Source of the DNA: Acidobacteria bacterium Mor1
Lineage (GTDB): Bacteria > Acidobacteriota > Polarisedimenticolia > Polarisedimenticolales > Polarisedimenticolaceae
Assembly (NCBI GenBank): GCA_001664505.1
Contig: CP011806.1
Span: forward strand, 240,882-304,881
Reading direction: 5' to 3'
Length of the DNA stretch: 64,000 nt
Of the stretch, positions 8,662 through 31,871 are shown one piece after another. The notes under the pieces were generated by a model, which saw only the letters and a list, made by a program, of their open reading frames with translations, did no database searches and was not told the origin of the DNA. How positions within the stretch are numbered: the stretch's first letter is position 1; the number at the start of each line of letters is the position of its first letter. A program made the translations under genes and the position numbers.

Positions 8662-8679
8662 CAAGCCGCAGGGGCGTCG

Positions 8680-9423
8680 CTACTCGCCGAACATCGCTCC
8701 CAGGTGGAAGCGGGCCTGCCGGCGCCACCAGGGCCACTCGTGGGAGACGTCCTGACCCCAGATGTCGACCTTGTGGCTGATCTCCTTCTGGGCCAGCATG
8801 CCGCCCAGCATCCGCGCCTCGTCGACGTTGCCATCCTCCCAGCGGCCCTGGCCGCAGACCAGGGTCAGATGGGTGTTGCGCTTGATGCGCTCCAGCGCCT
8901 CTCCCTCGAGGCCGGGCACGAAGGCCATGGGGTTGTTGAAGTAGACCTCGGGGCTGTCGAGCCCGCCGCAGAACTCGGTGATGTCATAGCGGGCGCTGAG
9001 GCAGAGGGCATAGCGGAAAGTCTCGGGGTACTTGAGGGCGAAGAGCGCCGAGTAGTAGCCGCCGAGGCTCGTGCCGCTGACGCCGATCGGAATGTCCGGG
9101 GACTTGCAGTCCTCGCGGATGAACGGCACGAGCTCGTTCATCACGTATTGCTCGAAGGCTTCGTGGCGGGACAGGCGCCAGCGGGGGTCGCTCTCCTTGC
9201 GGGTCCAGGCCTCGGCCACGTTGGATTCGCTGGTGTAGAGCTTGAGTTTGCCCGCTCCGATCAGGTCGGCCAGGGCCTCGACCATCCCGTGGGCCTGCCA
9301 CTCGTGGGCCATGCCCGAGGCCGAGGGAAAGACCAGCAGCGGCGGTCCGTAGTGGCCGTAGCGCCACAGGTGCATGCGGCGACCCATCGACTGGCTCGGA
9401 ATCATCTCGTGCTTGGCAAACAT
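8680..9423 (-). CDS. Esterase-family alpha/beta hydrolase
   Basis: 247 aa. I choose the ATG at 9423 (MFAKHEMIPSQSMGRRMH), with GGGGGCG ahead of it, over the ATG 26 codons upstream. The sequence fits the putative-esterase (PF00756-like) group: N-terminal beta strands LWRYGHYGPPLLVFPSASG, a nucleophile elbow GTSLGG (Ser near residue 127), and a catalytic His in DVSHEWPWWR near the C terminus. The family hydrolyses carboxylic esters such as S-formylglutathione, feruloyl or mycolyl esters; the substrate cannot be read from the sequence. No signal peptide, so probably cytoplasmic. Convergent with the TPR lipoprotein, 18 nt apart. Confidence 0.85.
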   Translation of the reverse strand: MFAKHEMIPSQSMGRRMHLWRYGHYGPPLLVFPSASGMAHEWQAHGMVEALADLIGAGKLKLYTSESNVAEAWTRKESDPRWRLSRHEAFEQYVMNELVPFIREDCKSPDIPIGVSGTSLGGYYSALFALKYPETFRYALCLSARYDITEFCGGLDSPEVYFNNPMAFVPGLEGEALERIKRNTHLTLVCGQGRWEDGNVDEARMLGGMLAQKEISHKVDIWGQDVSHEWPWWRRQARFHLGAMFGE

Positions 9424-9571: not shown

Positions 9572-10432
9572 ATGGGACTGCAGGTTCATCTGGTCGACGG
9601 GACATACGAGTTGTTCCGCGCCTACTACGGAGCGCCGCCCTCCAAGGGGGCCGACGGCTCCGAGGTGGGGGCCGTCAAGGGGCTGACCCGCTCGATGCGG
9701 GCGCTGACCGGCCGTGAGGGTGCGACCCATGTGGGTGTCGCTTTTGATAGCGAGATCCGGTCGTTCCGCAACGAGCTGTTCGACGGCTACAAGACCGGAG
9801 AGGGGATCGAAGAGGAACTGCTGGCACAGTTCCCCCTTGCCGAACGGGCCCTCCGGGACCTCGGCTTTCGGGTGTGGTCGATGATCGAATTCGAGGCCGA
9901 TGACGCCCTGGCCACCGCGGCCAACCGTTTTGCCGCCGACCCGGCGGTGGAACAGGTGCTGATCTGCACCCCCGACAAGGATCTGGCCCAGTGCGTTCAG
10001 GGGAACCGCGTGGTGATGCGTGATCGCCGCCGGGAGCGGACCCTCGACGAGGCGGCGGTGGTGGAGAAGTTCGGCGTCTCGCCGGCGTCGATCCCCGACT
10101 GGTTGGCGCTGGTCGGCGACAACGCCGACGGTATTCCAGGCGTGCCCCGCTGGGGTGCGCGCTCGTCATCGACGGTATTGGCCGCCTACGGCCACGTCGA
10201 CGCGATCCCCGACGACGCCGAGCAGTGGAGTGTCAAGCCCCGAGGGGCCGCCGGCCTGGCCCGCAACCTGGCGGAGCACCGGGAAGCGGTGGCGCTCTAT
10301 CGCAAGCTCGCCACCCTGCGTCTGGACGTTCCCATCGACGACGACCTGGCCGGCCTCGAGTGGCGCGGGCCCGGCGGCGGCTGGGCGGACATGGCCGCGT
10401 ACCTGGGAGAACGGGACGGAGGGATGGCCTGA
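9572..10432 (+). CDS. 5'-3' exonuclease (FEN/PolA-N-terminal-domain-like), stand-alone
   Basis: 286 aa, the nuclease domain alone without a polymerase. Metal-binding acidic clusters of the family are visible: VDGTYELFRAY, VAFDSEIRSFRNELF, EFEADDALATAA and CTPDKDLAQCV. A helix-hairpin-helix segment (LALVGDNADGIPGVPRWGAR) follows. The canonical GDSSDNIPGVPGIGPKTA is changed in its second half, with R-W-G-A-R-S-S-S replacing G-I-G-P-K-T-A. Start ATG 9572 is preferred; a GTG nine bases upstream is an alternative. The 3' end overlaps the kinase start (ATGA), an unusual coupling of a DNA-repair nuclease with a membrane Ser/Thr kinase. Role: processing of 5' flaps or RNA primers. Confidence 0.9.
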   Translation: MGLQVHLVDGTYELFRAYYGAPPSKGADGSEVGAVKGLTRSMRALTGREGATHVGVAFDSEIRSFRNELFDGYKTGEGIEEELLAQFPLAERALRDLGFRVWSMIEFEADDALATAANRFAADPAVEQVLICTPDKDLAQCVQGNRVVMRDRRRERTLDEAAVVEKFGVSPASIPDWLALVGDNADGIPGVPRWGARSSSTVLAAYGHVDAIPDDAEQWSVKPRGAAGLARNLAEHREAVALYRKLATLRLDVPIDDDLAGLEWRGPGGGWADMAAYLGERDGGMA

Positions 10433-12936
10433 TGAGCGGCCTCGAACAGCTCGGTCCCTATCGCATCGTCGAACTCCTCGGCTCCGGGGCGATGGGCGAG
10501 GTCTACAAGGCGATCGACAGCAAGATGTTCGACCGCGTCGTGGCGGTGAAGGTGCTCTCCGAGCGGCTTTCCGCCAACGAGCAGGCCCGGCTTCGCTTCC
10601 GGCGGGAGGTCGAGGTGGCCTCGCGCTTGTCCCACACCAACGTGGTCAACACCTACGACCACGGGGAACACGAGGGCCGGGCCTACTTCGTGATGCAGTT
10701 CGTCGACGGGGACGACCTGTCCCGGGTGATCGCCGACCGTAGCCGAAGCCTGACCGACCGGATGCGCATCGCGATCCAGATCTGCGCCGGGCTGGGGCAC
10801 GCCCACGGGAACCAGGTCGTCCACCGTGACGTCAAGCCGAGCAACATCATGATCTCCCGGCTCGGCGACCGGGATCACGTGACGTTGGTCGACTTCGGCA
10901 TCGTGCATGTCGAGGATTCGGACCTGACCCACACCGTGACCCAGCCGGGCACCTATCGCTACATGTCGCCGGAGCAGCTCCGCGCCGAGCCGGTGGGCCA
11001 CCGCAGCGATCTGTTCTCCCTCGGCATCGTGCTCTACGAGTTGTTCTGCGGGCACCATCCCTTCGATGCGCCGAGCGAGGCGTTGACGACCAGCATGATG
11101 TTGCGGGAAGACCCGGAGCCGATGCGGACCCGGGTCCCGGAGCTGCCGGCGGAACTGGATGACATCGTGTCGCGGCTGTTGGCGAAGGATCCCGAGGCGC
11201 GTCCGCCCCATGCCGAGCAGGTGCTGGAAGAGTTGGATCAGGTCTTGACCCGGGTCGCGGCAGGCACCGACCCCGGATTGCTGGGCGCCACCACGCCGAC
11301 CCATCTGGTCGCCATCGAACGGGTGCTGGATACCGGGGATACCGAACAGGCGCGCCGCATGCTGGTCGACGCCATGCGTGAGGACCCGACCGACGGAGCC
11401 GCCCGGGGCATGCTCGACCGGGTGATGAGCATCAATGCCGAGGGGGTTCCCTACCGGGAGTACCGTGCGGCGTTGGCCCGCAGCACGGCCGCGTTGCGTG
11501 CCGGGGAATGGGCCGGTGCCCGCAGCGCCGCCCAGGAGGCCCGGGAATTGTGGCCGGCGGACTCCCAGTGGCAGGTGCAGCTGTCACAGATCGATATCAA
11601 GGAACGGGAGTCGAGCCGGTCTTCCCGGCCGGGAACCCCGCGGCCCCGTCCGGTGGCGGTCCCCGACCCGCCGCAGCAAGACGAGCCCGAGGTAGCCGAG
11701 CCCGCTCCCGAAGAGCCGGAAGCTCGAGTTGCCGAGCCGGCGGAACCCGAGGTCGAGGCGCAGCCGGAGCAACCGCAGGCCGCGGAAGCGGCGCCTGACG
11801 AGCCGGACCGCTGGGACGAAGAAGACGAAGCATTCGACGAGCACTCGGATGAACCGGTGCCGCAAGCGCCCAGGCGGCGCCGCAGCGATTGGCGCGGCAC
11901 CCCCGCCAAGGCCCCCGAGCCCGAGCGGCGAGGCGGCAGGGTCCTGATCGGAATCCTGGCCGTGGCCGGTCTTGCCCTCGTGGCCCTTGCCGCCTTCTGG
12001 TTCCTCGGGCCGGGCGCCGGCGAAGCCGTCGAGCCCGAAGTGCAGGCCGTGGTGCCAGCCGAGCCCCAGGATCCCGGCGCGGGGGACCGCGAAGCCGCCG
12101 AGGGGGCGCGCATCGAGACGCTCCTGGCCGCCGCCCGCGAGCAGGTTTCCATTGCCGAGGCCTACTCCAGTGAGGATGGCGCCGGCCTCGCCGGGGCGTT
12201 GGCGGTGTACGACGCGGCGTTGCGCATGGTCGATCAGGTCCTGGACGAACGGCCCGAGGATGCCGAGGGCCTGGCGCTGCGGGACGAGATCGAGGGCCGG
12301 GTCCTCGAGGCCAAGGCGAGCCAGACCCGTCTCGCAGAGCAGGAGCGGGAGCGAGAGGCCCGGGAACGGGCCGAGCGCGCGGCGTCACGGCCGGAGCCGA
12401 GGCCGCAACCTCCGGCGGCCGAGCCGGTCGATCGAGCGTCGACGCAGCAAACGAAACCTCAGGTGCCTGCGCAGGAATCCGCCGCTGGGGACGATCCCGC
12501 CGAGGCGGACGGGGCCATCGCCGAGGCCGATCCCGCCGGCGAGGGCGCAACGCCCGCAGAGAACGCCGAGGACCGGATCGCGTTGATCGGTACCGAGACC
12601 GCCCGGATCCAGACCGCCCTCGACCGCTGGAAGTTGTCCCACGAGCGCTTCGACGTGTTGGCGCTGCGTAGCGTGTTTCCGCGCTTCCAGAATTTCGAGG
12701 CGCTGCAGCGGCAGTTCGACGCGCTCAAGTGGCAACGGCTGGAGATGACCACGCCGCAGATCGTGTGGGGTGAGGGACTGCGCACCGCCGAGGCCGCCGT
12801 CGACGTCACCACCGAGTTCATGACCAAGCAAGGGGTCAACCCCGGTCCCCGGGAGCTCTCGCTGGTGTTCTTCATGCAGCGCAGCGGTGAGATGTGGATC
12901 ATCGACCGGATGGATGTCGGAGATTCCGGTGAGTAA
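10432..12936 (+). CDS. Membrane Ser/Thr protein kinase (Hanks type) with extracytoplasmic C-terminal region
   Basis: 834 aa. The start ATG 10432 overlaps the exonuclease stop. Kinase domain ~residues 9-270: glycine loop GSGAMGEVYK, VAVKVL (Lys40), catalytic loop HRDVKPSN (Asp133), VDFG (Asp154), and YMSPEQL in the activation segment. A short TPR-like stretch (~300-380) and a long acidic Pro/Glu linker follow. One TM helix spans ~505-526 (LIGILAVAGLALVALAAFWFL), then a Glu/Arg-rich coiled-coil-like segment, a second disordered stretch and a ~115-residue C-terminal domain (from DRWKLSHERFDVLALRSVF) resembling NTF2/SnoaL-type folds. The kinase faces the cytoplasm and the C-terminal domain the periplasm, giving a receptor layout. 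No PASTA repeats. Confidence 0.92.
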   Translation: MSGLEQLGPYRIVELLGSGAMGEVYKAIDSKMFDRVVAVKVLSERLSANEQARLRFRREVEVASRLSHTNVVNTYDHGEHEGRAYFVMQFVDGDDLSRVIADRSRSLTDRMRIAIQICAGLGHAHGNQVVHRDVKPSNIMISRLGDRDHVTLVDFGIVHVEDSDLTHTVTQPGTYRYMSPEQLRAEPVGHRSDLFSLGIVLYELFCGHHPFDAPSEALTTSMMLREDPEPMRTRVPELPAELDDIVSRLLAKDPEARPPHAEQVLEELDQVLTRVAAGTDPGLLGATTPTHLVAIERVLDTGDTEQARRMLVDAMREDPTDGAARGMLDRVMSINAEGVPYREYRAALARSTAALRAGEWAGARSAAQEARELWPADSQWQVQLSQIDIKERESSRSSRPGTPRPRPVAVPDPPQQDEPEVAEPAPEEPEARVAEPAEPEVEAQPEQPQAAEAAPDEPDRWDEEDEAFDEHSDEPVPQAPRRRRSDWRGTPAKAPEPERRGGRVLIGILAVAGLALVALAAFWFLGPGAGEAVEPEVQAVVPAEPQDPGAGDREAAEGARIETLLAAAREQVSIAEAYSSEDGAGLAGALAVYDAALRMVDQVLDERPEDAEGLALRDEIEGRVLEAKASQTRLAEQEREREARERAERAASRPEPRPQPPAAEPVDRASTQQTKPQVPAQESAAGDDPAEADGAIAEADPAGEGATPAENAEDRIALIGTETARIQTALDRWKLSHERFDVLALRSVFPRFQNFEALQRQFDALKWQRLEMTTPQIVWGEGLRTAEAAVDVTTEFMTKQGVNPGPRELSLVFFMQRSGEMWIIDRMDVGDSGE

Positions 12937-18859: not shown

Positions 18860-18872
18860 TTGCGGAGTGAGA

Positions 18873-18889
18873 CCGGCGCGCTGCGCCGG
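18873..18889 (+). terminator. Weak hairpin after the AOS-family gene
   Basis: CCGGCGC-GCT-GCGCCGG, a perfect 7-bp stem 14 nt past the stop, followed only by a broken T-run (CTGCTTTCT). It could terminate inefficiently before the sensor-kinase gene. Confidence 0.35.
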
Positions 18890-18935
18890 CTGCTTTCTGC
18901 TCGATGGTTTGCAGACTGAGTTAGACTCGACGGCA

Positions 18936-21900
18936 ATGGGGGGACCGTTGACGAGCGATCGCCGTTGGTCGGGCCTTTTCGTGGGCCTGCTGTTGTCGCT
19001 GTGGGCGCTCCCGGCCGCTGCGGGGCAGTTGCACTTCGTGCACTACGACAACCTCCAGGGCCTCCCTCAACGCCAGGTTCTTTCCGCATTCCAGGACGCC
19101 CGCGGCTACCTCTGGTTCGGCACCTACGGCGGGCTCAGCCGTTTCAACGGTCAGGAATTCCGCGCCTACACCGCCGAGGACGGCCTGCCGTCCAACGTCA
19201 TTCGCGACATCGATCAGCTCGCCGACGGCCGGATCGTCCTCGCACCGGAGAGCGGCGGCGTCTGCTTTCTCGACGAGTCCGACCGTGTGGAGTGTGTCCG
19301 CTCCGGGGGCGGGATCGATCTTCATCGGGTGCGCCGCGTCGCGGTGAGCGCCGAGGGAGTCTGGGTCGCGCGGGACGAGGGGATCGCCCTGGTGCGCGAC
19401 GGGCAGGTAGAGGATCTGTCGGCGGCGGTCGCGGGTCGCGCTTGTTTCGACGTCGCTGTCGACGACCGGGGCGTTGTCTGGGTCGCCACCGAGGCCGGGC
19501 TGATGCAAGGCGGGCGAGCAGGCTTCGACCCTGCGGCCGGCGCTCCCGCCGGGAGACGTTTCGATGTGGTCGACGTCACCGCCGAGGGGATCTTCGCGGT
19601 GGATGAGAGCGGCCGGGTCTGGCGCACTCCGGGTGGTGCAGCACCACTTTCCGCCTACGCGTTGGGCGGCGAGGCGCCGGTTTCCAAGCCGCGCCGGTTC
19701 GCTGCCGGTGGGAACGGGACGCTATGGACGGCAACGGTTGACGGCCTGTACCGCTGCCGCGATGCCCGCTGCTCCAGGGCCGATCTGGAGGAGGAGCTGA
19801 CCTCGACTCTGGTCTGGGACCTGATCGTCGATCGGGAACACTCGCTCTGGGTCGGAGGGGATGCGGGAGTCTCGCGGATCACCGAGACCTCGTTCCGCGC
19901 CTTCGGCAGCCGGCACGGCCTGCCCCATGACTTCGTGCGGGGACTTAGGGAGGGGAGCGACGGGCGCCTGTGGGTCGCGACCCGCGGCGGCATCGCCTAC
20001 CTGGATCCCAGCGAGGGACGGTTCAGGGCAATCGCGACCAACACCGCAGGCGAGCGGATCTTCGCGATCTTGCCCCTCGACGACGGATCGTTGCTCTACG
20101 GCTGTGATCACGGCCTGTTCTTCCGGGGGCCGGATTCGAAGAGCCGTTGGAGGCGAGCGGAAGGTCTCGGCGAGGCGGTCTATGCCCTGGAGCCGGCGGT
20201 GGATCGCGAAGGAGTGTGGGTCGGCACCCGCGGTGGATTGATGCTGTGGCACGACGGGGCGTTGAGCGACCCGCTGCTCGAACCTTTCAGGTCTCCGATC
20301 GTCTCGATGGACATCGACAGTCGCGGAAGGCTGTGGATGGGGCTGATGGATGGCGGAGCCGCCCGCTTGAACGGAGACGCCGTCGATGTCTTCGGCGAGG
20401 AAGCCGGCTTCTCCGACCAGACCGTCTGGGACATCAGTTCCGACGGCCGGGGCGGCGTCTGGCTCGGTACCAACGGCGAAGGGGTGTTCCACGGCGGAGA
20501 CGACGGGTTCCGGCGCCTGACCCGGGACGAGGGATTGGTCAACGACTTCGTCTGGCAGGTGCTCGTCGATCGCCACGACAACCTCTGGGTCTTCACCAAC
20601 CAGGGATTGGCTCGCTTCGACGGCGAGCGGTTCAAGACCTACGGCAGCAGCGACGGGCTGCTGGATATCGAGGGTAGCGCCACCGCCGCCGTCGAGACCG
20701 GCGACGGCCGGCTCTGGTTCGGGACGGCGCGGGGGCTTCATGAGTACCTGCCGGAGTACGAAGACGAACACCTTCCGGTGCCGGCGCCGGTCATCGAAGG
20801 GGTCTTCTCTTCGAACGCCGGCCCGCTGGTGCCCGGTCAGCGGCTGAAGCACGATCACGGGACCCTGCAGGTCCGCGTCGCGACCCTCGGATTTCGCGCG
20901 CCCCAGTCGATTCAGGGGCGCTACCGGCTGCGCGGCGGGCCCGAGCCCTGGAGCCCGCTCTCCCGGGACGGCATGTTGAGCATTGCGGAACTGCCGCCGG
21001 GTTCCTACGAGCTGCAGGTCGCCGTCTCCCGGGACGGTTTCGCCTGGACCGATCCGCCGGCGCGCTTCCCCTTCGACGTGGCGCCGCCGCTGTGGGCATC
21101 CACCGGCTTTCGGTTGGCGGCCACCCTGGCGCTGTTGTCCTCGGTCATCGGCATCTTGTGGATTCGATCCCGGCGGAGCCGCGAGACTCGACGCCGGCTC
21201 GAGGCGGAAGTCTCGGCCCGCACCTTCGAGCTGCGCAGCCAGGCCCAGTCGCTGCAGCGGGAGATCGCCGAACACCAACGCACCGAGGAGCAGCGGCTGG
21301 AGCTCGAACAGAACCTGCTCCATGCCCAGAAGATGGACGCGCTGGGCCGGCTCGCCGGGGGTATCGCCCACGACTTCAACAATCTGCTGACGACGATCAC
21401 CGGCTACACCAGCTTGCTGGGGGACCGGCTGCCCGACGCCGACGGCCGCTATCCCGAGGTCATGGAGATCGATCGGGCCGCCGAGCGGGCTGCGGAGCTG
21501 ACCCGCAAACTCCTGACCTTCAGCCGCAAGCACATCACCCAGGCGCGGCGGGTCGATCTCAATCAGGTGGTGCGAGATGTATCGCGGATGTTACGCCGTC
21601 TGATCGGCGAGGACATCGCGCTGACCACCCGCCTGGCTGCCGAGGAGATCCCGATCGAGTTGGATCCGGTGCAGCTCGAACAGGTGTTGATCAACCTGGC
21701 GACCAACGCCCGGGACGCCATGCCCGAGGGCGGCAGCCTGGTCATTACCACCTGGGTCGTCGGCCGCCCGTCCGGGGACATGGCGATGCTCGAGGTGCGG
21801 GACGACGGGGTCGGCATGGACGCCGAGGTGCGGGCCCGGGTGTTCGAACCGTTCTTCACCACCAAGGACGAGGGCAAGGGCACCGGCCTCGGTCTCTCGA

Positions 21901-22439
21901 CGGTTTACGGCATCGTCAAACAGCACGAGGGTTTCCTCGAGTTGGACACCGCCCCCGGAGAGGGCTGCGCCGTGCGGGTCGCGTTCCCGCTGGCCGACGG
22001 GTTGTCCGAGCCCGAGGTGGCCGACCCTCCGGCCAGCTCGGTGGACGCGGCAGGGGAGACGGTCTTGGTCGTCGAGGACGAGGCCGAGGTGCGCCGGCTG
22101 GTGGCCGAGCTCTTGCGCTCCGGGGGGTACCGAGTCCTCGAAGCGGAGAACGGCGGGGCGGCGATGGATCATTGCCGGGAGCATCCGGGACCGATCGAGT
22201 TGGTCTTGACCGACGTGGTGATGCCCGGCCAGGACGGCCCCGAGGTCGTCCGCCGTTTGCGCCAGGTTCGCCCCGAACTCGCCGTGGTCTACATGTCCGG
22301 GTATTCCGCCGAGCGTTTCGAGGCCTCGGGGGTGCCGGCCGATGCCGGCTTCCTGAACAAGCCCTTCAGCCGGGGCGCGCTCCTGGGTTCGATTCGCCGT
22401 GCACTCGACCGGACGGCGGCGCCCCGGGCCGGATCCTGA
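18936..22439 (+). CDS. Hybrid sensor histidine kinase with Reg_prop beta-propeller sensor and receiver domain
   Basis: 1,167 aa from ATG 18936. A TTG at 18948 has a better ribosome site (GGGGGGA) and is equally possible; both give a signal peptide ([18 protein letters not shown]). Sensor: two-component regulator propeller repeats (~40-620) with the signature G-L-S-R-F-N-G and [27 protein letters not shown]. Then a Y_Y_Y domain (~640-715), one TM helix (~724-745), a coiled coil, the HisKA dimerisation helix with phospho-acceptor [11 protein letters not shown] (His812), an HATPase domain ([28 protein letters not shown]) and a C-terminal receiver ([14 protein letters not shown] with Asp1093, Lys in NKPF). 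The whole phosphorelay except the output is in one chain, resembling glycan-sensing hybrid systems. The molybdoenzyme genes start 84 nt downstream. Confidence 0.93.
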
Positions 22440-22523
22440 TTCCGGCCGCATCCCGCCGAAACCGAAGGTAACCGGGGCCGCGGTGTGGCATAGTGCCGTC
22501 TTCGCGTCTGGAGGAGGCCGTAC

Positions 22524-24098
22524 TTGCAGCTCGGATTCGTCATCGACCACTCCCGTTGCATCGGATGCCACGCCTGCACCGTGGCCTGCAAATCGGAGAA
22601 CGACGTACCGCTGGGAAACTTCCGCACCTGGGTCAAGTACACCGAGGAAGGAAACTTTCCCGAGGTCAAACGGTCGTTCGCCGTCCTGCGCTGCAACCAA
22701 TGCTCGAGCGCGCCCTGCGTCACGATCTGTCCGGTCAAGGCGCTGCACAAGCGGGACGACGGCATCGTCGACATCGACCCCGCCGCCTGCATCGGCTGCA
22801 AGGCCTGCATGCAGGGCTGCCCCTACGACGCGCTCTACATCAACGAAGACAAGGGCACGGCGGAGAAGTGCCACTTCTGCGCCCACCGCACCGAGGTCGG
22901 CCTGGCGCCGGCGTGCGCCGTGGTCTGTCCCACCGAGGCGATCATCCCCGGGGACTTCCACGATCCGCGCAGCCCGGTATCCCGCATGCGCCAGGATCAT
23001 GACCTGACCGCCCGCAAGACCGAGGCGGGGACCGGTCCCAACGTGCTCTACCGCGAGGCGGCACCGGCGGGGCTGGTGCCCCTCGATACCAATGCCGCCG
23101 GCGGCTACCTGTGGTCCAACCCGATGCCCTGGCTCGACATGGACGCCGAGCGCTTCAACGCGCTGCAGCAGGAGGCGGAGCAGCAGTCCGATGCCCGCAC
23201 GACCTACGACGTCGACCACCGGCCCTGGTGGGGCTGGAAGGTCTCTGCCTACCTGGTGACCAAGGCGCTCTCGGCCGGCGCATTCCTGATGATGGCGATC
23301 CTGCAGTTCGCCGCTCCGGCCGGCGCCGACCGGATGGTCTTCGGCGCGTCGATCCTGTTGCCCTTCGCCGGGTTGTTCTTCCTGGCGGTGACCGGGGCAC
23401 TGTTGATCGCCGACCTGCGCAAGCCGGCGCGGTTTCTCTATATCCTGTTGCGTCCGAACTGGAGTTCGTGGCTGGTGCGGGGCACCTTGGTGATCAGCGG
23501 CTACGGCGCGGTCCTGCTGCTCTGGCTCCTGCACCTGGCAGGCGGAGGGGTCGGGGTCGGTAGCGCCGCGACCGGGCGGGATCCGGCGGGCCTGGCGATC
23601 CTCGTGACCGGTTCGTTGTTCGCGGCGTTGACCGCGGGCTACACCGGTTGGCTCTTCGCCCAGGCCAAGGGCCGGGTGCTCTGGATGCGCCGGGGACTGT
23701 GGCTCCACCTGATCGTCCAGGCGCTGATCGCCGGTTCGGCGTTGACGTTGATCCTCGGCCCCCTGTTTCTCTACACCACCCGGCACTCGATGGGAGTGAC
23801 CTCGGCGACCCTGCTGGTCGGCCTGGTGCTTCACGCCCTGTTCGTGGTGCTCGAACCCAAGCTCTCCCCCAAGAACCGGGAGCGGGAGTACGACAGGGCT
23901 TCGGAGCTGATCCTGTCGGGGCCCTACGCCCGCCGCCATCGCTGGGTCGGGCTCTTCGTCGGCGTGGTATTGCCGGCGCTGTTGCTGTTGCCCCCCTTCC
24001 CGCTCTGCTGGCTCTTGGCCGGTGTGCTTGCGCTGGTGGGGCTCTACGCCGAGAAGGACATCCTGGTGCGCGCCGGTCAGGCGCTGGCCATCAGCTAG
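22524..24098 (+). CDS. Fusion of four-cluster ferredoxin subunit and NrfD/PsrC-like membrane subunit
   Basis: 524 aa, TTG start at 22524 with GGAGGAGG six nt ahead. Residues 1-~175 are a DmsB/NrfC-type electron-transfer subunit with four [4Fe-4S] ligand sets: C-IG-C-HA-C-TVA-C at 12-22, then CNQCSSAPCVTIC, CIGCKACMQGC and CHFCAHRT...CAVVC. After a linker (~175-240), eight to nine hydrophobic helices follow, of the NrfD/PsrC family that exchanges electrons with quinol. The usual B and C subunits are thus fused. Because the Fe-S domain precedes the first helix without a signal, it should sit in the cytoplasm. The catalytic subunit follows 9 nt downstream. Confidence 0.9.
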   Translation: MQLGFVIDHSRCIGCHACTVACKSENDVPLGNFRTWVKYTEEGNFPEVKRSFAVLRCNQCSSAPCVTICPVKALHKRDDGIVDIDPAACIGCKACMQGCPYDALYINEDKGTAEKCHFCAHRTEVGLAPACAVVCPTEAIIPGDFHDPRSPVSRMRQDHDLTARKTEAGTGPNVLYREAAPAGLVPLDTNAAGGYLWSNPMPWLDMDAERFNALQQEAEQQSDARTTYDVDHRPWWGWKVSAYLVTKALSAGAFLMMAILQFAAPAGADRMVFGASILLPFAGLFFLAVTGALLIADLRKPARFLYILLRPNWSSWLVRGTLVISGYGAVLLLWLLHLAGGGVGVGSAATGRDPAGLAILVTGSLFAALTAGYTGWLFAQAKGRVLWMRRGLWLHLIVQALIAGSALTLILGPLFLYTTRHSMGVTSATLLVGLVLHALFVVLEPKLSPKNREREYDRASELILSGPYARRHRWVGLFVGVVLPALLLLPPFPLCWLLAGVLALVGLYAEKDILVRAGQALAIS

Positions 24099-24107
24099 GC
24101 GGGACCC

Positions 24108-26837
24108 GTGAGCGAACACGATTCGAGCCGAGGACGGCAATCTCCCTGGGACCTCAGCGTCGGTCCGCCGCCTGAATCCTGGGACGACTGGGTCGAGCTG
24201 GATCCCAAGGAATGGCCCAAGAAACTGGAACGGCACTACCGCTGCGTGCCGACGATCTGCTTCAACTGCGAGTCGGCCTGCGGGCTGCTGGCCTTCGTCG
24301 ACAAACGCAACGGAGAGATCGTCAAGTTCGAGGGCAACCCGGTTCATCCTGGAAGCCGCGGCCGCACCTGTGCCAAGGGGCCGGCCACGATCAACCAGGT
24401 CAAGGATCCCGAGCGGATCCTGAAGCCGCTCAAGCGCAACGGACCCCGGGGCTCGGGAAAGTTCGTCGAGACCACCTGGGAAGAGGCGCTCGAGGATATC
24501 GGCGGCCGGATTCGTGAGGCGATCGGCTCGGGGCGTCACGACGAGGTGATGTACCACGTCGGCCGGCCCGGCGACGATCACTTCATTCCGCGGCTGCTCA
24601 ATGCCTGGGGGGTCGACGGGCACAACTCCCACACCACCGTCTGCAGCGCCTCGGCGCGCACCGGTTTCGCCTTCTGGTGCGGCGCGGATCGTCCCTCTCC
24701 GGACTACTCCTGCACCAAGTTTGCGCTGCTGCTCTCATCGCATCTCGAGACCGGCCACTACTTCAATCCCCACGCCCAGCGGATCATGGACGCCAAGAGC
24801 CGCGGGGCGCGGATCGGCGTGGTCGACACACGGCTGAGCAACACCTCGACCCACGCCGATCTCTGGATCTCTCCCTGGCCGGGGAGTGAAGCGGCGCTGC
24901 TGCTCGGCGTGGCCCGCAACCTGATCGTCAGCGGCCGCATCGACCGGGACTTCGTCGAACGCTGGACCAACTGGGAGCAGTTCCTCGGCAAGTTCGACTC
25001 GGCGACCCCCGCCGGCGCCGGCGGCGTCGATCGCTTCCTGGAGCTGCTGGCCGAACGCTACGCCCGCTACACGCCGGAGTACGTCGCCGAGGAGTGCCGC
25101 ATTCCCGGGGACACCCTGGAGAAGCTGGCCGACGAGATCGCCGCCGCCGGGTCCCAGTTCACCAGTCATCTGTGGCGCAACACCGCCGCGGGCAACCTGG
25201 GAGGCTGGCAAACCGCGCGGTCGCTGCTGTTGCTTCATGTGTTGACCGGCAGCTTCGGTACCCCGGGCGGGTTGAACCCCAATTCCTGGGACAAGATCAC
25301 TCCGGCGCCCAGCGAAGCGCCGCCGGCTCACGACCAGTGGAACGAGTTGATCTGGCCCCGGGAATACCCGCTGGGCCACTACGAGATGAGCCACATCCTG
25401 CCGCACCTGATGGAGCATCAGGACAAGCGGCTCGAGGTCTACTTCACCCGGGTCTACAACCCGGTCTGGACCAACCCCGACGGCTGCACGTGGATCCAGA
25501 TGCTGGAAGACCCGGCCCGGGTCGGCTGTCACGTGGCGCTGACCCCGATCTGGAGCGAGACCGCCCAGTGGGCCGACTACGTGCTGCCCATGGGGCTGGG
25601 GCCCGAGCGTCACGATCTGATGAGCCAGGAGACCCACGCCGGGACCTGGATCGGATTCCGCCAGCCGGTGCCGCTGCAGTACCGGCGGCTTCAGGGTGAG
25701 GAACACCTCGACCGCACCCTGGGCACCAACCCGGGACAGGTCTGGGAAGAGGCGGAGTTCTGGATCGACCTGACCTGGAAGATCGATCCCGACGGTTCCA
25801 TGGGTATCCGCCGCTTCTACGAGTCCAAGCAGGATCCGGGCAGCAAGATCACCCTCGACGAGTATTACGCCGACATCTTCGAGTCCTCGGTTCCCGGACT
25901 GCCCGAGGCGGCGGCGGCCGAGGAGATGAAGCCGCTGGAATACATGCGGCGCTACGGAGCCTTCGCCGCCCCCTACGGCGGCCAGCGCCGCTACGAGCAG
26001 GAAGGCTTCCCCACGCCGAGCAAGAAGCTCGAGGTCTACTCGCCGACTCTCGAGGAGTGGGGTTGGGAGGAGCACTCGGTTCCCGAGTATCAGCGCAGTC
26101 ACGTCCACTGGCGGGAACTCGACGAGGCGGCGGGGGAGATGGTGCTGCTGCCGACCTTCCGCCTGCCGACGCTGATCCATACCCGTTCGGGCAACGCCAA
26201 GTGGCTGCAGGAGATCAGTCATTCGAACCCGCTGTGGGTCCATCCGGTCGACGCCGAACGGCTCGGTGTGGAAACCGGAGACCTCTGCCGGGTCAAGACC
26301 CGCATCGGCTACTTCGTGCCGCGGGTTTGGGTCACCGAGGGGATTCACCCGGGGATCGTCGCCTGCTCGCATCACGTCGGACGCTGGCGGACCAACGTCG
26401 TGGTCGGCGGGCAGCGGATGGCGTCGTCGTTGGTCGACATCGAGCGGGGGCGGGGGACCTTCCGCATCCGGCATCGACAGGGCGCCGGCCCCTACGCCAG
26501 TAACGATCCGGACACCAAGAAGGTCTGGTGGCACGAGGTCGGGGTGAACCAGAACCTGACCTTCGCCGTGCAGACCGATCCGGTCAGCGGCATGCAGTGC
26601 TGGCATCAGCGGGTGTTCGTGCTGACCGCCGAGCCCGACGATCGCTACGGCGACGTGTTCGTCGATACCCACAAGTCCCGGGAGGCGTTCAAGGAGTGGC
26701 TGGCCAAGACCCGGCCGGCCCCCGGCCCGGGTGGCCTGCGGCGCCCCCTGTGGTTGAAGCGGCCGCTCCATCCCAAGCAGGAGCGCTACTACTTCGGCGA
26801 CGGCCCAGGGGCGCGAGGGGGTTCGTCCGGCGAGTAG
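24108..26837 (+). CDS. Molybdopterin oxidoreductase catalytic subunit (DMSO reductase family), no Tat signal
   Basis: 909 aa, GTG start 24108, nine nt after the Fe-S/NrfD gene. The N terminus has no RRxFLK motif or hydrophobic stretch, so it is probably cytoplasmic. An [4Fe-4S] site is formed by C51-x2-C54-x3-C58-x29-C88 (CFNCESACG ... RGRTCAKG). The likely Mo ligand is Cys179 in TTVCSASAR, in the position of the Cys/Ser/Asp ligand of the family. Other marks: ARIGVVDTRLSNTSTHAD, DRDFVERWTNW, and a C-terminal molybdopterin-dinucleotide domain (HSNPLWVHPVDAERLGVETGDL). It resembles polysulfide/thiosulfate/arsenate-type reductases or oxidases with NrfD partners; the substrate is not deducible. 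Together with the previous gene it is a complete quinone-linked complex. Confidence 0.9.
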   Translation: MSEHDSSRGRQSPWDLSVGPPPESWDDWVELDPKEWPKKLERHYRCVPTICFNCESACGLLAFVDKRNGEIVKFEGNPVHPGSRGRTCAKGPATINQVKDPERILKPLKRNGPRGSGKFVETTWEEALEDIGGRIREAIGSGRHDEVMYHVGRPGDDHFIPRLLNAWGVDGHNSHTTVCSASARTGFAFWCGADRPSPDYSCTKFALLLSSHLETGHYFNPHAQRIMDAKSRGARIGVVDTRLSNTSTHADLWISPWPGSEAALLLGVARNLIVSGRIDRDFVERWTNWEQFLGKFDSATPAGAGGVDRFLELLAERYARYTPEYVAEECRIPGDTLEKLADEIAAAGSQFTSHLWRNTAAGNLGGWQTARSLLLLHVLTGSFGTPGGLNPNSWDKITPAPSEAPPAHDQWNELIWPREYPLGHYEMSHILPHLMEHQDKRLEVYFTRVYNPVWTNPDGCTWIQMLEDPARVGCHVALTPIWSETAQWADYVLPMGLGPERHDLMSQETHAGTWIGFRQPVPLQYRRLQGEEHLDRTLGTNPGQVWEEAEFWIDLTWKIDPDGSMGIRRFYESKQDPGSKITLDEYYADIFESSVPGLPEAAAAEEMKPLEYMRRYGAFAAPYGGQRRYEQEGFPTPSKKLEVYSPTLEEWGWEEHSVPEYQRSHVHWRELDEAAGEMVLLPTFRLPTLIHTRSGNAKWLQEISHSNPLWVHPVDAERLGVETGDLCRVKTRIGYFVPRVWVTEGIHPGIVACSHHVGRWRTNVVVGGQRMASSLVDIERGRGTFRIRHRQGAGPYASNDPDTKKVWWHEVGVNQNLTFAVQTDPVSGMQCWHQRVFVLTAEPDDRYGDVFVDTHKSREAFKEWLAKTRPAPGPGGLRRPLWLKRPLHPKQERYYFGDGPGARGGSSGE

Positions 26838-26849
26838 CGCTGCGGGGTT

Positions 26850-28967
26850 CTAGCGCCGGGTCACGATCCAGGCGCGGAGCCGCGGCCGGCGCGCGAAGTC
26901 CTCGGGGGTCACCTCGGCGGTGATCTCCCGGGCGTCGAGGCCGTCCAGTTCGTCCAGCTCGAAGTCCCGGTAGTTGGTGCTGAACAGGATCTCGCCGTCC
27001 CGGTTCAGGTGATCCGCCGACATGCGCAGCAGGTTGCGGTGGTCCCGCTGCACGTCCAGGTCGCCGTCCATGCCCTTGGACTTGGAGTAGCTCGGCGGTG
27101 CCAGGAAGATCCGGTCGTAGCCGCCGCGCCGGTCGGTCTGCAGGAACCGCAGGGCGTCTCCCCGCAGCAGCGTGTGCTGGTCCCGGTCCTTGAAGCCGTT
27201 GAGTTCCATGTTCTGCCGGCCCCAGGTCAGGTACACGTTGGACAGATCCACGCTGACGCTGTGGCTGGCGCCGCCGGCCGCCGCGGCGACGGTGGCGGCG
27301 CAGGTGTAGGCGAACAGGTTGAGGAAGCTGCGCCCCCGGGCCTGTTCACGGATGCGTTGCCGCAGCAGCCGGTCATCGAGGAACAGGCCGGTATCGAGGT
27401 AGTCGTGGATGTTGACCACGAAACGCATCCCGTGTTCTTCGACCTGGCTGAAGCGGGAGCGGTCGCCGTAGCGCATCGCCTGGTCGTGAGGGCCGCGCTT
27501 GTGCCGGACCCGCAGCACGATCTCCGCCGGGTCGATCTCCAGCACCTCGGCCACCACCTGGACCGCGTCCTTGAGCCGGCGATCGGCGGCGGCGGGGTCG
27601 ACCTTCTTGGGTCGGGAGTACTCCTCGACGCGCACCCCGCCGGCGTACCAGTCGACCGAGAGGTTGTAGGTCGGGACATCGGAGTCGTAGATCCGGTAGG
27701 CGGTCACGCCGGCGCGTTTGGCCCACTTGCGTCGTTCCCGCAGGTTGGCCTCGAGGCGTTTCTTGAAGCCGCGGGCCTCTTCGCCCGCTTTGCGCCAGCC
27801 GGGCCCCTTGGATTGAGGCGCTGCCGCTTGAGTGATCGGGTACTCCAGCAGGCGGCAGTCGATCGGCCCGTTGTAGAGCACGTGGCGCCGCGCCGGACGC
27901 AAGCCCACCCGTTTGTCCAGCGCCCGGTTCCCCGACAGCACGAAGGCGGTCCAGCCGGCGAAGCGCTGTTTGAGCACGTCGCCGAGCCCTTCGTAGAGCG
28001 GGCCCAGTTCGCCCGCCTCGCCGAGGCGTTCGCCGTAGGGCGGGTTGGTGATCAGGATGCCCGGATCGTTCCACGGAGGTTTGGCGTCCCGAAGTTCGCC
28101 CCGGGACACCCGCACCTTGGCCGAGAGCCCCGCCTGGGTGATCCGTTCCCGGGCGATATCCAGGGCGGCGGGGGATACGTCGCTCCCCGCTATGCGGAAC
28201 ACATTCTTGCGGGAAGCTTCCCGGCGCTCCTGGGCCTCGTCGAGCAAACGCTGCCACAGCCCCTTGTCGTGGGCCCGCCAACCCTCGGCGCCGAAGCGCA
28301 TGCGGGTCAAACCGGGTGCGATGTCGAGGGCCATCGAGGCTGCTTCGAGCAGCAACGTGCCCGAGCCGCACATCGGATCGTACAGCGGATGGGTCGGATG
28401 CTTTTCATGCCAGCCGGCAATGCGCAGCAGCACCGCGGCGAGGTTCTCCTTGAGCGGCGCGGCAGCGCCCTTGGTTCGGCCACCCCGTTCGTGGAGGCCG
28501 CTCCCGGCCAGGTCGATGCTGACGGTGGTGCGTGGGCCGCGCACGTGAACGTGGAGCCGCACGCCGGGCCGGACCTTGTCGATGCTGGGCCGGTCCCCCT
28601 CGTCCTCGCGGATGCGGTCGACTACCGCGTCCTTGGTCTTGAGGGCGACGAAGTGGGAGGGACCCGCAGGGGACTGGGTGCCGGCCACGTTGACCGCCAT
28701 GGTCGCCTCGGCGCCCAGATGTTCGGTCCAGGGGAGCTCGATGACCCGGTTGTACAGGTCGTTGGCGTGGTGCACCTCGAACTCGGCCAGGGGCAGCAGC
28801 ACCCGGCTGGCGGTGCGGGAGCCGATACAGGCCCGGTAGCCGTCTTCGAGCCGGCGGCCGAAGCTGACCCCGCCCCGGTGGAGCGCCACGTCGGGCAGGC
28901 CGAGCTCTCGGAGCTCGGCGGCCAGGATCTCTTCCGCGCCGCGGGTGGCGGCCGCGAAGAACTGCAT
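26850..28967 (-). CDS. rlmL: Bifunctional 23S rRNA methyltransferase RlmKL
   Basis: 705 aa, close to the ~700 aa of E. coli RlmKL. I choose the ATG at 28967 (MQFFAAATRGAEEILAAEL, preceded by AGGAAGGG) over a frame that stays open 184 codons further. Order: THUMP domain (~40-155), first SAM methyltransferase (RlmL: DPMCGSGTLLLEA and catalytic NPPYGERLG), then a second RlmK part (FLNLFAYTCAATVAAAAGG, substrate loop APPSYSKSK). Known activities are m2G2445 and m7G2069 of 23S rRNA. It is divergent from the kinase gene at 29112. Confidence 0.93.
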   Translation of the reverse strand: MQFFAAATRGAEEILAAELRELGLPDVALHRGGVSFGRRLEDGYRACIGSRTASRVLLPLAEFEVHHANDLYNRVIELPWTEHLGAEATMAVNVAGTQSPAGPSHFVALKTKDAVVDRIREDEGDRPSIDKVRPGVRLHVHVRGPRTTVSIDLAGSGLHERGGRTKGAAAPLKENLAAVLLRIAGWHEKHPTHPLYDPMCGSGTLLLEAASMALDIAPGLTRMRFGAEGWRAHDKGLWQRLLDEAQERREASRKNVFRIAGSDVSPAALDIARERITQAGLSAKVRVSRGELRDAKPPWNDPGILITNPPYGERLGEAGELGPLYEGLGDVLKQRFAGWTAFVLSGNRALDKRVGLRPARRHVLYNGPIDCRLLEYPITQAAAPQSKGPGWRKAGEEARGFKKRLEANLRERRKWAKRAGVTAYRIYDSDVPTYNLSVDWYAGGVRVEEYSRPKKVDPAAADRRLKDAVQVVAEVLEIDPAEIVLRVRHKRGPHDQAMRYGDRSRFSQVEEHGMRFVVNIHDYLDTGLFLDDRLLRQRIREQARGRSFLNLFAYTCAATVAAAAGGASHSVSVDLSNVYLTWGRQNMELNGFKDRDQHTLLRGDALRFLQTDRRGGYDRIFLAPPSYSKSKGMDGDLDVQRDHRNLLRMSADHLNRDGEILFSTNYRDFELDELDGLDAREITAEVTPEDFARRPRLRAWIVTRR

Positions 28968-29111
28968 CGGTGTCCCTTCCTCGGCTTTGCCGTCGTCTAA
29001 TCGGGCGACGACTGTAGCACCGGCCCGGAAAGCACTATGCTTAGCCCCCGGGAGGTCACCCGCCTCCCGTCGCGATCCCGGGTTCGGGCGCGTATCGGAG
29101 GCCCCTGGCAC

Positions 29112-31871
29112 GTGTTGCTCGAGCCCGATCAGAAACTGCTGCACTACCGCCTGGTGTCCCCGATCGGTGAGGGAGGCATGGGGGTGGTCTGGCGGGCGGT
29201 CGACGAATCGCTCGACCGGGACGTCGCGATCAAGATCCTGCCTGCGGAGTTTGCCGGGGACGCGGTGCGGCTGGCCCGCTTCGAGCGAGAGGCCAAGGTG
29301 CTGGCCTCGATTCGCCACCCCAACATCTGCCAGGTCTACGGCCTCCACGAGGTGGAGTCCGAGTCCGGTTCGGTGCGTTTCCTGGCCATGGAACTTCTGG
29401 CAGGCGAGGACCTCTCCCGGCGGCTCCAGGGGGGCGGCCTGGGCATCGACACCACCATCGAGATCGGCCGCCAGATCTGCGCGGCATTGGAAACCGCCCA
29501 CGGTCAGGGGGTGATTCACCGGGATCTGAAGCCGGCCAACATCATGATCTCCCCCGAGGGAGAGGTCACGGTGTTGGACTTCGGCCTGGCCCGGATCGGT
29601 GAGGCGGACGGCTCCCTGGCGGACGCCTCCCGTTCACCCACGCTGACCACGCCGGCGACCGCGGCAGGTGCGTTGCTCGGCACCGCGGCCTACATGAGCC
29701 CCGAGCAGGCCCGGGGACGGGTCGCGGACAAGCGCGCCGACCTCTGGGCCCTGGGCTGCGTGCTGTTCGAATGCCTGACCGGGCAATCGATCTTCGCCGG
29801 CGAGACCATCTCCGACACCCTGGCAGCGGTGTTGCGCGGGGAGCCGGACTGGGACGCGTTGCCGGCGGGCACGCCTCCGCGGCTGCGGGGGTTGCTGCAA
29901 CGCTGCCTACAGAAGGATCTGGATCAGCGCCAACGGGACGCGGGAGATGCCGGGCTTGATCTCGCCGCGGCGTTGCTCGATGACGAGAGCGGCGCCGGCA
30001 GCGCGCCGTCGGTGCAGGCAGGCAGCGCAGGAGGGCGTTGGGGTTGGGTGGCGTTGGCACTCGTGGCGCTGGTCGCCCTGGGCGCGATGTTGCGACCGGG
30101 ATGGTTCGGTTCGGCAGGGGAGGATGCGCCGAGGGTAGTGCGCAGCACCCTAAACCTGCCCAGCGGTTGGCAGTCGGAGACGGTACGCATCAGCCCCGAC
30201 GGACGGGTCGTCGCGGTCGTGGCGAGCCCTGTCGGACTCCCCGGCGACGGCCGGGGGCAGCGGGCGTTCGTGCGGGTGCTCGACCGGCACAGCGAGTTCG
30301 TGCAGTTGCCCGGCGAACTGGACAACAGCTGGCTGCGCTTCTCCCCGGACTCCAGCGAGGTCGCGGTCTTGCAGCGGGTCGTCGCCGGCGTCAGCGGTAT
30401 CGGACTCGTGCGGATCCCCTCCGACGGGTCGGCGCCCCCCGCGTTGATCACCGAGTGGCAGGATGAGTGGCACTCCGATGTGATGTGGCGGGCCGACAAC
30501 GAGATGCTGGTGCTCGGCATGGAGCCGCCCCGGCTGATTCGCCTGCGGCTCGACGGCAGCCCGGCTCCGGACCCGGTGCCGATCGAATTCGACACGCAGA
30601 ACTCCTTCTTCGAGATGCACGGGTTGTTCCCCGACGGTTCGATCCTGGGTACGGTCGAATCCTGGGTCGGTGGATACCACCAGGACGCAGCCCGCCTCGA
30701 CCCGGCTACCGGCAAGGTCACGGAACTGATCGATCGTGCCTTCGAGCCGGTCTATCTGTCGTCAGGGCATATCGCCTTCACCCGCAGGGATCAGCTGTTG
30801 GTGGTGGACTACGACGACGCGGCGCATCGGGTCACGTCGGTGCCCCGCCTGATCGAGTCGGGGCTGCGGGCGGGAATCGACCTGACCGCAGCGATCTTCT
30901 CGGTGTCGGATCGTGGGGATCTGGCGCACCTCGAGGGGGGCATGGTCGGTGAGAAGCGCCAGCTGGTCTGGGTCGAGCCCGACGGCTCGACGACCCCCTG
31001 GTCCGATGAGCGCGCGGCCTTCGTCGCCGGGCACCTGGACGACAGCCAGGACGGCAAAGTCATCGCCTTCGTACGCCTGGCCACCAGCGGCCTGTTCGAG
31101 GTCTGGGCCAGCGAGGTCGACGACCCTTCCCCGCGCAAGGTGCTGGCTTACCCGGAGATGGACTGTTCCGACATCACCGTGTCGCCGCGGGGCAGGCGTG
31201 TCGCCGCCCACTGCCTCGGGGACCTGCAGCGCCGGGGGCTCTACATCGCGGAGTTTCCCAACGTCGGCTCCGCCGGGGTGCGGGTCTACGCGACGGCACC
31301 GGAGGCGCAGACCCGGCCGTCGAGCTTCGGTCCGGAGGGGCGGCAACTCTTCTTCACCGAGCGCCGCCAGGGTGTCTACAGGCTCAAGCTGCTGGAACTC
31401 GACGACGAGGGCAACGCCACCGAGCCACGCACCGTCGAGGGACTAAGCGGAGACGTCGCCTTCGCCATGGTCTCCGACGACGGCAAGTTGATCGCCTTCT
31501 CCGAATGGGACGGCAACGCCTGGTCGATCCAGGTGGCTCCCTGGGACGGTGTGCGCCCGGGACCGGCGCGGCCGGTGATGCGTTCGGAGATGTGGGCCTT
31601 CGACTGGTCCGGTATCCGCAAGGGGGATGCCTGGGAGCTGGTGGGTACGCCGATGAACGGGGGATCCACCCGCTTCTGGATCGACCCCCGGGGCCGCGTG
31701 ACCGGCACCGAACCGATCGTCGGAACCATGATGCAGAACATGCGCCTGATCGGCTTCACCTTCCTCCCCGACGGTCGCACCCTGGCGATCGAGTCCGGCC
31801 AGAAGGAGATGGAGGGGGGCGACGTCCGGCTGGTGACCGATTGGGGACGGCTGGTTGCGGCGGGTGACTAG
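29112..31871 (+). CDS. Membrane Ser/Thr kinase with C-terminal PD40/WD40-like propeller
   Basis: 919 aa from GTG 29112 (GGAGG ten nt upstream). This gives the N terminus usual for the family (LLEPDQKLLHYRLVSPIGEG). ATG 29037 is a possible longer start. Kinase ~residues 12-285: GEGGMGVVWR, VAIKIL (Lys41), HRDLKPAN, DFG, YMSPEQARG, DLWALGCVLFE. One TM helix at ~310-332 (WGWVALALVALVALGAML). The remaining ~590 residues form repeated beta blades of TolB/PD40 type (RISPDGRVVAVVAS, LRFSPDSSEVAVLQRV, MVSDDGKLIAFSEWDG). This is the common acidobacterial kinase-propeller receptor architecture; the ligand is unknown. nei follows 21 nt downstream. Confidence 0.92.
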   Translation: MLLEPDQKLLHYRLVSPIGEGGMGVVWRAVDESLDRDVAIKILPAEFAGDAVRLARFEREAKVLASIRHPNICQVYGLHEVESESGSVRFLAMELLAGEDLSRRLQGGGLGIDTTIEIGRQICAALETAHGQGVIHRDLKPANIMISPEGEVTVLDFGLARIGEADGSLADASRSPTLTTPATAAGALLGTAAYMSPEQARGRVADKRADLWALGCVLFECLTGQSIFAGETISDTLAAVLRGEPDWDALPAGTPPRLRGLLQRCLQKDLDQRQRDAGDAGLDLAAALLDDESGAGSAPSVQAGSAGGRWGWVALALVALVALGAMLRPGWFGSAGEDAPRVVRSTLNLPSGWQSETVRISPDGRVVAVVASPVGLPGDGRGQRAFVRVLDRHSEFVQLPGELDNSWLRFSPDSSEVAVLQRVVAGVSGIGLVRIPSDGSAPPALITEWQDEWHSDVMWRADNEMLVLGMEPPRLIRLRLDGSPAPDPVPIEFDTQNSFFEMHGLFPDGSILGTVESWVGGYHQDAARLDPATGKVTELIDRAFEPVYLSSGHIAFTRRDQLLVVDYDDAAHRVTSVPRLIESGLRAGIDLTAAIFSVSDRGDLAHLEGGMVGEKRQLVWVEPDGSTTPWSDERAAFVAGHLDDSQDGKVIAFVRLATSGLFEVWASEVDDPSPRKVLAYPEMDCSDITVSPRGRRVAAHCLGDLQRRGLYIAEFPNVGSAGVRVYATAPEAQTRPSSFGPEGRQLFFTERRQGVYRLKLLELDDEGNATEPRTVEGLSGDVAFAMVSDDGKLIAFSEWDGNAWSIQVAPWDGVRPGPARPVMRSEMWAFDWSGIRKGDAWELVGTPMNGGSTRFWIDPRGRVTGTEPIVGTMMQNMRLIGFTFLPDGRTLAIESGQKEMEGGDVRLVTDWGRLVAAGD

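Follow-up and report, generated by a model that had tools for sequence, protein, structure and literature searches.

The BC-A locus

The 64,000-nucleotide stretch of contig CP011806.1 of Acidobacteria bacterium Mor1 analyzed here (hereafter the window, to which all coordinates refer) contains two adjacent genes, BC and A, which encode the subunits of a putative sulfite:quinone oxidoreductase facing the cytoplasm. BC combines in a single protein the Fe-S subunit and the quinone-reactive membrane anchor that are usually called B and C, and A is the molybdopterin catalytic subunit (Table 1). The two genes lie on the same strand, in the same reading frame, and are separated by 9 bases. BC starts with TTG according to the reading of the open reading frame (ORF) and cannot be extended because its frame is closed upstream by a TAG at 22491, with no start codon among the 10 intervening codons. 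An N-terminal extension of A that would carry a twin-arginine translocation (Tat) leader is excluded because the TAG stop codon of BC is in frame three codons upstream. The fusion of B and C and the lack of a Tat leader on A, both recognized in the initial annotation, are borne out at the locus.

The N-terminal part of BC matches Fer4_11 and the TtrB model (3e-52), and residues 234–520 match NrfD (PF03916, 1.7e-16). The AlphaFold2 model of BC (mean predicted local distance difference test (pLDDT) score 84.7) contains eight long helices (residues 237–263, 269–296, 316–339, 354–379, 392–415, 420–442, 469–487 and 493–520). In Foldseek searches, the best matches of the Fe-S domain are ArrB (6cz7_B) and PsrB (2vpw_B; 41% identity to PsrB in the structural alignment), and the anchor matches ActC and PsrC (2vpw_C). 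BC accordingly has both components of an NrfD-type quinone module, the eight-helix PF03916 domain and the four-cluster Fe-S domain; C12, C15, C18, C22, C57, C60, C65, C69, C89, C92, C95, C99, C116, C131 and C135 are invariant.

The A subunit matches the Pfam families Molybdop_Fe4S4, Molybdopterin and Molydop_binding, and its AlphaFold2 model, of moderate quality (mean pLDDT 76.3), is closest to ArrA (6cz7) and PsrA (2vpw) in the PDB. The [4Fe-4S] Cys set and the probable Cys ligand of molybdenum, both noted initially, correspond to C51, C54, C58 and C88 and to C179, respectively; all five are conserved in 89 of the 90 family members that were aligned, and the other member has a gap. From its position in the family, C179 is the probable molybdenum ligand, and the exported relative from Azoarcus also has Cys at the equivalent position. 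Selenocysteine was considered and rejected: the in-frame TGA codons flagged in the family are stops at or near the C-terminus, and the residue at the ligand position is Cys in these 89 members. Both window proteins score far below the cut-offs of the curated equivalog models PhsA, TtrA, TtrB and ArrA (e.g. 172 vs 694 bits for PhsA and 177.5 vs 416 bits for TtrB).

Table 1. Features of the BC-A locus and other genes in the window.
Feature	Coordinates	Strand	Remarks
Shine-Dalgarno sequence GGAGGAGG preceding the BC start	22510..22517	+	Sequence reading; 6-nucleotide spacer to TTG 22524
BC, fused four-cluster Fe-S subunit and NrfD-type quinone-reactive membrane anchor	22524..24098	+	524 amino acids, no signal peptide
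BC, Fe-S domain, residues ~1–190, PsrB/TtrB/ArrB fold	22524..23093	+	Family and PDB matches, Foldseek, invariant Cys
BC, NrfD anchor, residues 237–520, eight helices, Lys/Arg-rich loops on the Fe-S side	23232..24083	+	AlphaFold2, Foldseek
TAG stop of BC, in frame of A, three codons before the A start	24096..24098	+	Sequence reading
A, molybdopterin catalytic subunit	24108..26837	+	909 amino acids, GTG start, no Tat leader
A, [4Fe-4S] Cys set, C51-x2-C54-x3-C58...C88	24258..24371	+	Family alignment
A, C179, probable Cys ligand of molybdenum, motif N-S-H-T-x-V-C-S	24642..24644	+	Family alignment
Hybrid sensor kinase (two-component-regulator propeller and receiver domain)	18867..22439	+	1190 amino acids, directly 5' of BC
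rlmKL-type bifunctional rRNA methyltransferase gene	26850..29519	-	Convergent; its end is ~13 bases past A
Large Ser/Thr protein kinase with a C-terminal part resembling tetratricopeptide repeats (TPR) or WD40	10225..12936	+	
Large Ser/Thr protein kinase, same description	29037..31871	+	

Fused BC and leaderless A across phyla

A pattern-based scan of GTDB genome contigs detected at least 579 confirmed relatives, of which the best 80 were examined together with plasmid homologues. The 80 loci come from Planctomycetota, Acidobacteriota, Rokubacteria, Chloroflexota, Myxococcota, Nitrospinota, an Actinobacteria metagenome-assembled genome and others, and the plasmid homologues from Thermomicrobium roseum, Rhodococcus jostii RHA1 and haloarchaea. 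In the Acidobacteriota, A is present in 30 of the 247 sampled genomes. BC is fused in all 79 loci of the examined set where it was found; four further loci, outside this count, stop at a contig edge. In three planctomycetal loci (L083, L087 and L089, of which two bear the title Phycisphaerales), the 8 kb preceding A contain no BC, and the partner of A may be located elsewhere or be of a different type. No published description of the fused BC family was found in the literature searched.

None of the 91 family A subunits has a credible Tat leader in a scan for twin arginines that was positive for all controls (RRxFL in PhsA, DmsA, six class-level Psr-like A subunits and the Azoarcus relative). 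Twin-arginine-like strings in the A frames of L015, L053, L068, L074, L079, L089, L099, L102, L104 and L105 and in BC of L046 and L081 were rejected as Tat leaders by eye, with no score from a signal-peptide program, because they precede the likely start, lack a hydrophobic stretch or immediately adjoin the Cys motif. The possibility that the leader was lost only at the window locus is rejected since the relatives are leaderless throughout; judging from the sequences, the missing leader and the fusion are a trait of the family. The pattern is beyond chance because the upstream BC fusion and the Tat-less A recur across phyla. In the tree of A, acidobacterial and planctomycetal members are interleaved within the clade that includes the window protein, and the haloarchaea group with a member of the Myxococcota; these groupings suggest horizontal transfer.

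Predicted orientation in the membrane

Because the Fe-S domain is fused to the N-terminus of the anchor, the orientation of the latter can be read from the BC sequence. Topology was predicted by the positive-inside rule, from the number of Lys and Arg residues in the loops of the predicted helices on the Fe-S side and on the far side. The mean counts are 14.9 and 2.0, respectively, with the same direction in all 73 BC proteins; for the window BC, with the helix limits from AlphaFold, the counts are 14 and 1. The bias is reversed in E. coli NrfD, TtrC, a DmsC and the Azoarcus and Sulfurovum anchors, matching their known or Tat-implied location, and E. coli HybB, in a 10-helix model, is predicted to have its N-terminus inside, in agreement with its known orientation. 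Three SoeC proteins, one encoded beside xsc, show the same orientation as the family (18:1, 14:1 and 18:0). With the support of these controls, the Fe-S domain of BC is predicted to lie on the cytoplasmic side and, therefore, A would be cytoplasmic as well, in line with the complex proposed initially.

In NrfD-type anchors, the quinone site is normally placed toward the outside (PMC8076601). Compared with PsrC, TtrC and NrfD, the anchor of BC would be inverted in the membrane, so that its quinone site would face the cytoplasm. The family provides a clean test of whether an inverted NrfD-type anchor works and of which way protons move.

Gene neighborhoods and the proposed function

The genes around BC-A in several lineages point to sulfur oxidation. 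In Rokubacteria, BC-A lies inside a sulfur-oxidation cluster, between genes for a persulfide dioxygenase-rhodanese, YeeE/YedE and flavocytochrome c sulfide dehydrogenase (FCSD) with a c-type cytochrome on the upstream side, and soxY, soxZ, soxXA-like and soxB genes downstream. Persulfide-dioxygenase-type genes (E < 1e-20) were found near BC-A in 14 loci from at least five phylum-level groups, including, outside Rokubacteria, loci of Myxococcota, Chloroflexota (Ktedonobacteria), Acidobacteriota (Terriglobia), Actinomycetota (Rhodococcus) and haloarchaea, where the protein is a metallo-beta-lactamase (MBL)-rhodanese. In the sequence flanking the 80 genome-contig loci, 11 such genes were seen, compared with ~0.34 expected by chance (estimated from 42 copies in the 121 Mb of 20 family genomes, uncorrected for shared ancestry). 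When the common descent of several Rokubacterial loci is taken into account, a fair estimate is approximately five or six independent lineages, still far more than expected by chance.

Other sulfur-related neighbors include a TauE/SafE-family gene (a putative sulfite exporter) directly 5' of BC-A in haloarchaea and TusA and DsrE2-like genes in Rhodococcus jostii RHA1. In Thermomicrobium roseum, where BC-A corresponds to TRD_RS12035/12030, a CsoR/RicR-type repressor gene (L105, 7084–7362) ends 11 bases before BC, and CstR-like sulfur sensing by its product is possible. Five close relatives (L025, L030, L041, L043 and L045) have in common a gene 3' of A, the ~170-amino-acid product of which combines a rhodanese domain with an N-terminal part containing Cys.

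The product of persulfide dioxygenase is sulfite (PMC11507549), and an inward-facing active site would be within reach of intracellular sulfite. BC-A is probably a membrane-bound, cytoplasm-facing sulfite:quinone oxidoreductase. As to the substrate, the direction of electron flow, the cofactor loading and the quinone site, we infer that intracellular sulfite, e.g. from persulfide dioxygenase, would be oxidized to sulfate at the bis-molybdopterin guanine dinucleotide (bis-MGD) molybdenum center of A, with the electrons passing to quinone and respiration. The initial annotation anticipated a substrate or an electron direction different from those of the exported complexes, and transfer from sulfite to quinone is the best current reading of that difference. 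The gene structure, the cofactor motifs, the absence of an export signal and the conserved fusion are direct readings of the sequence.

Several observations weigh against this assignment. No measured activity for any family member was found in the literature. A neighboring persulfide dioxygenase is also consistent with enzymes acting on persulfide or thiosulfate, and its coupling to a sulfite oxidase is not automatic because, in Beggiatoa, the SoeABC proteins were undetected in the aerobic conditions in which persulfide dioxygenase is active (PMC11507549). The window BC-A is flanked by the hybrid sensor kinase and rlmKL genes, with no sulfur genes, and no widely conserved sulfur genes were found beside BC-A in the close planctomycetal and acidobacterial relatives. 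The window genome has no match to SoxZ, for which the control genomes are also silent (the model matched 8 of 19 genomes in another search), and none to FCSD_central.

The window genome does encode a persulfide dioxygenase-rhodanese homologue at another site (37% identity), as well as an assimilatory-type sulfite/nitrite reductase and one TauE homologue. Because SoxZ and FCSD were undetected, the source of sulfite in this organism would be persulfide oxidation or another route. Identity between the window and Rokubacterial proteins is ~60%, and many residues are invariant; because the window subfamily lacks sulfur neighbors of its own, its functional assignment depends on this identity to members that have them. 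The only other NrfD-family match in the window genome (G000:C1:2895106-2896074) lies near an ActB-sized molybdopterin-like ORF at 2899027, which suggests an alternative complex III.

More broadly, and with the balance tipping only slightly in favor, BC-A would represent a second cytoplasmic sulfite:quinone oxidoreductase that evolved separately: in an exported enzyme lineage of the NrfD type, the Tat leader would have been lost, the Fe-S subunit fused to the membrane subunit, and the anchor inverted. The complex would then be a main route by which sulfite is oxidized in Acidobacteriota, Planctomycetota, Rokubacteria, Chloroflexota and haloarchaea. In the survey cited, SoeC is recorded in Proteobacteria, Clostridia and Aquificae, and SoeABC is unreported in any of the above groups (PMC8076601). 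Should sulfite oxidation by BC-A be real, the sulfur-oxidation potential of several abundant, mostly uncultured phyla has been overlooked because searches for SoeABC would not reliably detect the BC-A clade; many little-studied bacteria and some haloarchaea would be converting toxic sulfite to sulfate with the electrons going to respiration.

Alternative explanations

The initial annotation noted that SoeABC-like sulfite dehydrogenases, a known cytoplasmic case, could explain the locus. With respect to function, this appears right because the neighbors point to sulfite oxidation; with respect to descent, it does not hold up. An ordinary SoeABC that belongs to the SoeA clade, but with SoeB and SoeC fused, would share the likely chemistry, along with the predicted orientation and the lack of a Tat leader seen in xsc-linked SoeABC. 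The references for this comparison were the xsc-linked operons of Azospirillum TSH58, Indioceanicola and Paraburkholderia graminis, none with a biochemically proven SoeA sequence; a Ruegeria conchae plasmid match was rejected as not being SoeABC. However, A is closer to the Tat-exported Azoarcus enzyme (30% identity across most of the length, 367 bits) than to the Paraburkholderia SoeA-type protein (22%, 136 bits), and the BC anchor is of the NrfD type (PF03916) and has no similarity in BLASTP to SoeC, which is of the DmsC type. In two trees of A, the family forms one clade (Shimodaira-Hasegawa-like approximate likelihood ratio test (SH-aLRT) support 100), with Azoarcus adjacent to it (93 and 99) and SoeA apart. 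An exclusive clade of the family and the three SoeA-type sequences is rejected by the approximately unbiased (AU) test (p-AU 0.0015), whereas a wider clade that also includes Azoarcus is tolerated (p-AU 0.158). An ordinary SoeABC is thus improbable. That the cytoplasmic form arose twice independently is likely rather than proven because the branches are long and a single intact exported relative is included; a reversion of Azoarcus to export from a cytoplasmic ancestor is possible.

The reverse direction of electron flow, in a quinol-driven cytoplasmic reductase of polysulfide, persulfide, thiosulfate or tetrathionate, would be consistent with the kinship of the B part to TtrB and PsrB and of A to PhsA, PsrA and ArrA. 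This reading is unlikely given the oxidative character of the neighborhoods, with sox genes, flavocytochrome c and the O2-dependent persulfide dioxygenase, and the presence of family members in Rhodococcus jostii and haloarchaea, which are mainly aerobic. Oxidation of another cytoplasmic substrate, such as formate, arsenite or an organosulfur compound, with the sulfur neighbors being incidental, seems quite unlikely: the molybdopterin enzymes of this superfamily change substrates easily, and the window subfamily has no sulfur neighbors, but such neighbors recur in unrelated phyla with differing gene orders, and the window protein has ~60% identity to the Rokubacterial members. Finally, Tat hitchhiking is known for some cofactor enzymes, but export of A with a Tat-bearing partner to form an outward-facing complex is hardly credible when the sole partner, BC, is itself leaderless, has the Fe-S domain at its very N-terminus and shows a charge bias the reverse of that in exported complexes. 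In addition, no TorD-type chaperone was seen among the family loci that were annotated, in contrast to the exported loci of Azoarcus and Sulfurovum, each of which has one.

Comparison with known systems

The nearest intact relative of A found outside the family, the enzyme encoded on the plasmid pAZKH of Azoarcus sp. KH32C, likewise has an NrfD anchor and the gene order B, C, A but differs in having separate B and C, a Tat leader on A, a TorD chaperone gene and an anchor predicted in the opposite orientation. An unannotated, frameshifted relative of A with an SRRSFLK leader is present on the Sulfurovum mangrovi plasmid NZ_CP087125 (L112, ~5800–9150); it may be a pseudogene or reflect a sequencing error.

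TtrABC, PsrABC, PhsABC and ArrAB belong to the same superfamily as BC-A and share its cofactors and fold, with BC resembling TtrB, ArrB, PsrB and PsrC, and A resembling ArrA and PsrA. These complexes are exported via Tat (the motif in PhsA was seen in our scan), have separate B and C and act on tetrathionate, polysulfide, thiosulfate or arsenate. BC-A lacks their hallmark, the Tat leader on A together with an outward-facing Fe-S subunit and anchor.

BC also shares the Fe-S and NrfD redox module with ActBC, QrcCD and NrfCD, which, in the passages of two reviews of NrfD-like proteins used here, are separate proteins with a quinone site on the P-side (PMC8076601, PMC6303296), located in helices 1–4 (PMC8076601). 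Unlike these, BC is one protein and is predicted to be inverted; the same passages do not mention a one-protein inverted module, and the first of them describes SoeC as the sole inverted member (PMC8076601).

With SoeABC of the Allochromatium vinosum type, BC-A has in common the absence of a Tat leader, the predicted cytoplasmic location of the Fe-S and molybdenum subunits, an eight-helix anchor with the same charge bias and linkage to genes for sulfite production. SoeA, SoeB and SoeC are encoded by three genes, with a DmsC-type SoeC, whereas here the anchor is of the NrfD type, B and C are fused, and the gene order is BC-A. The best reading is that BC-A works like SoeABC, although its A subunit falls outside the SoeA clade.
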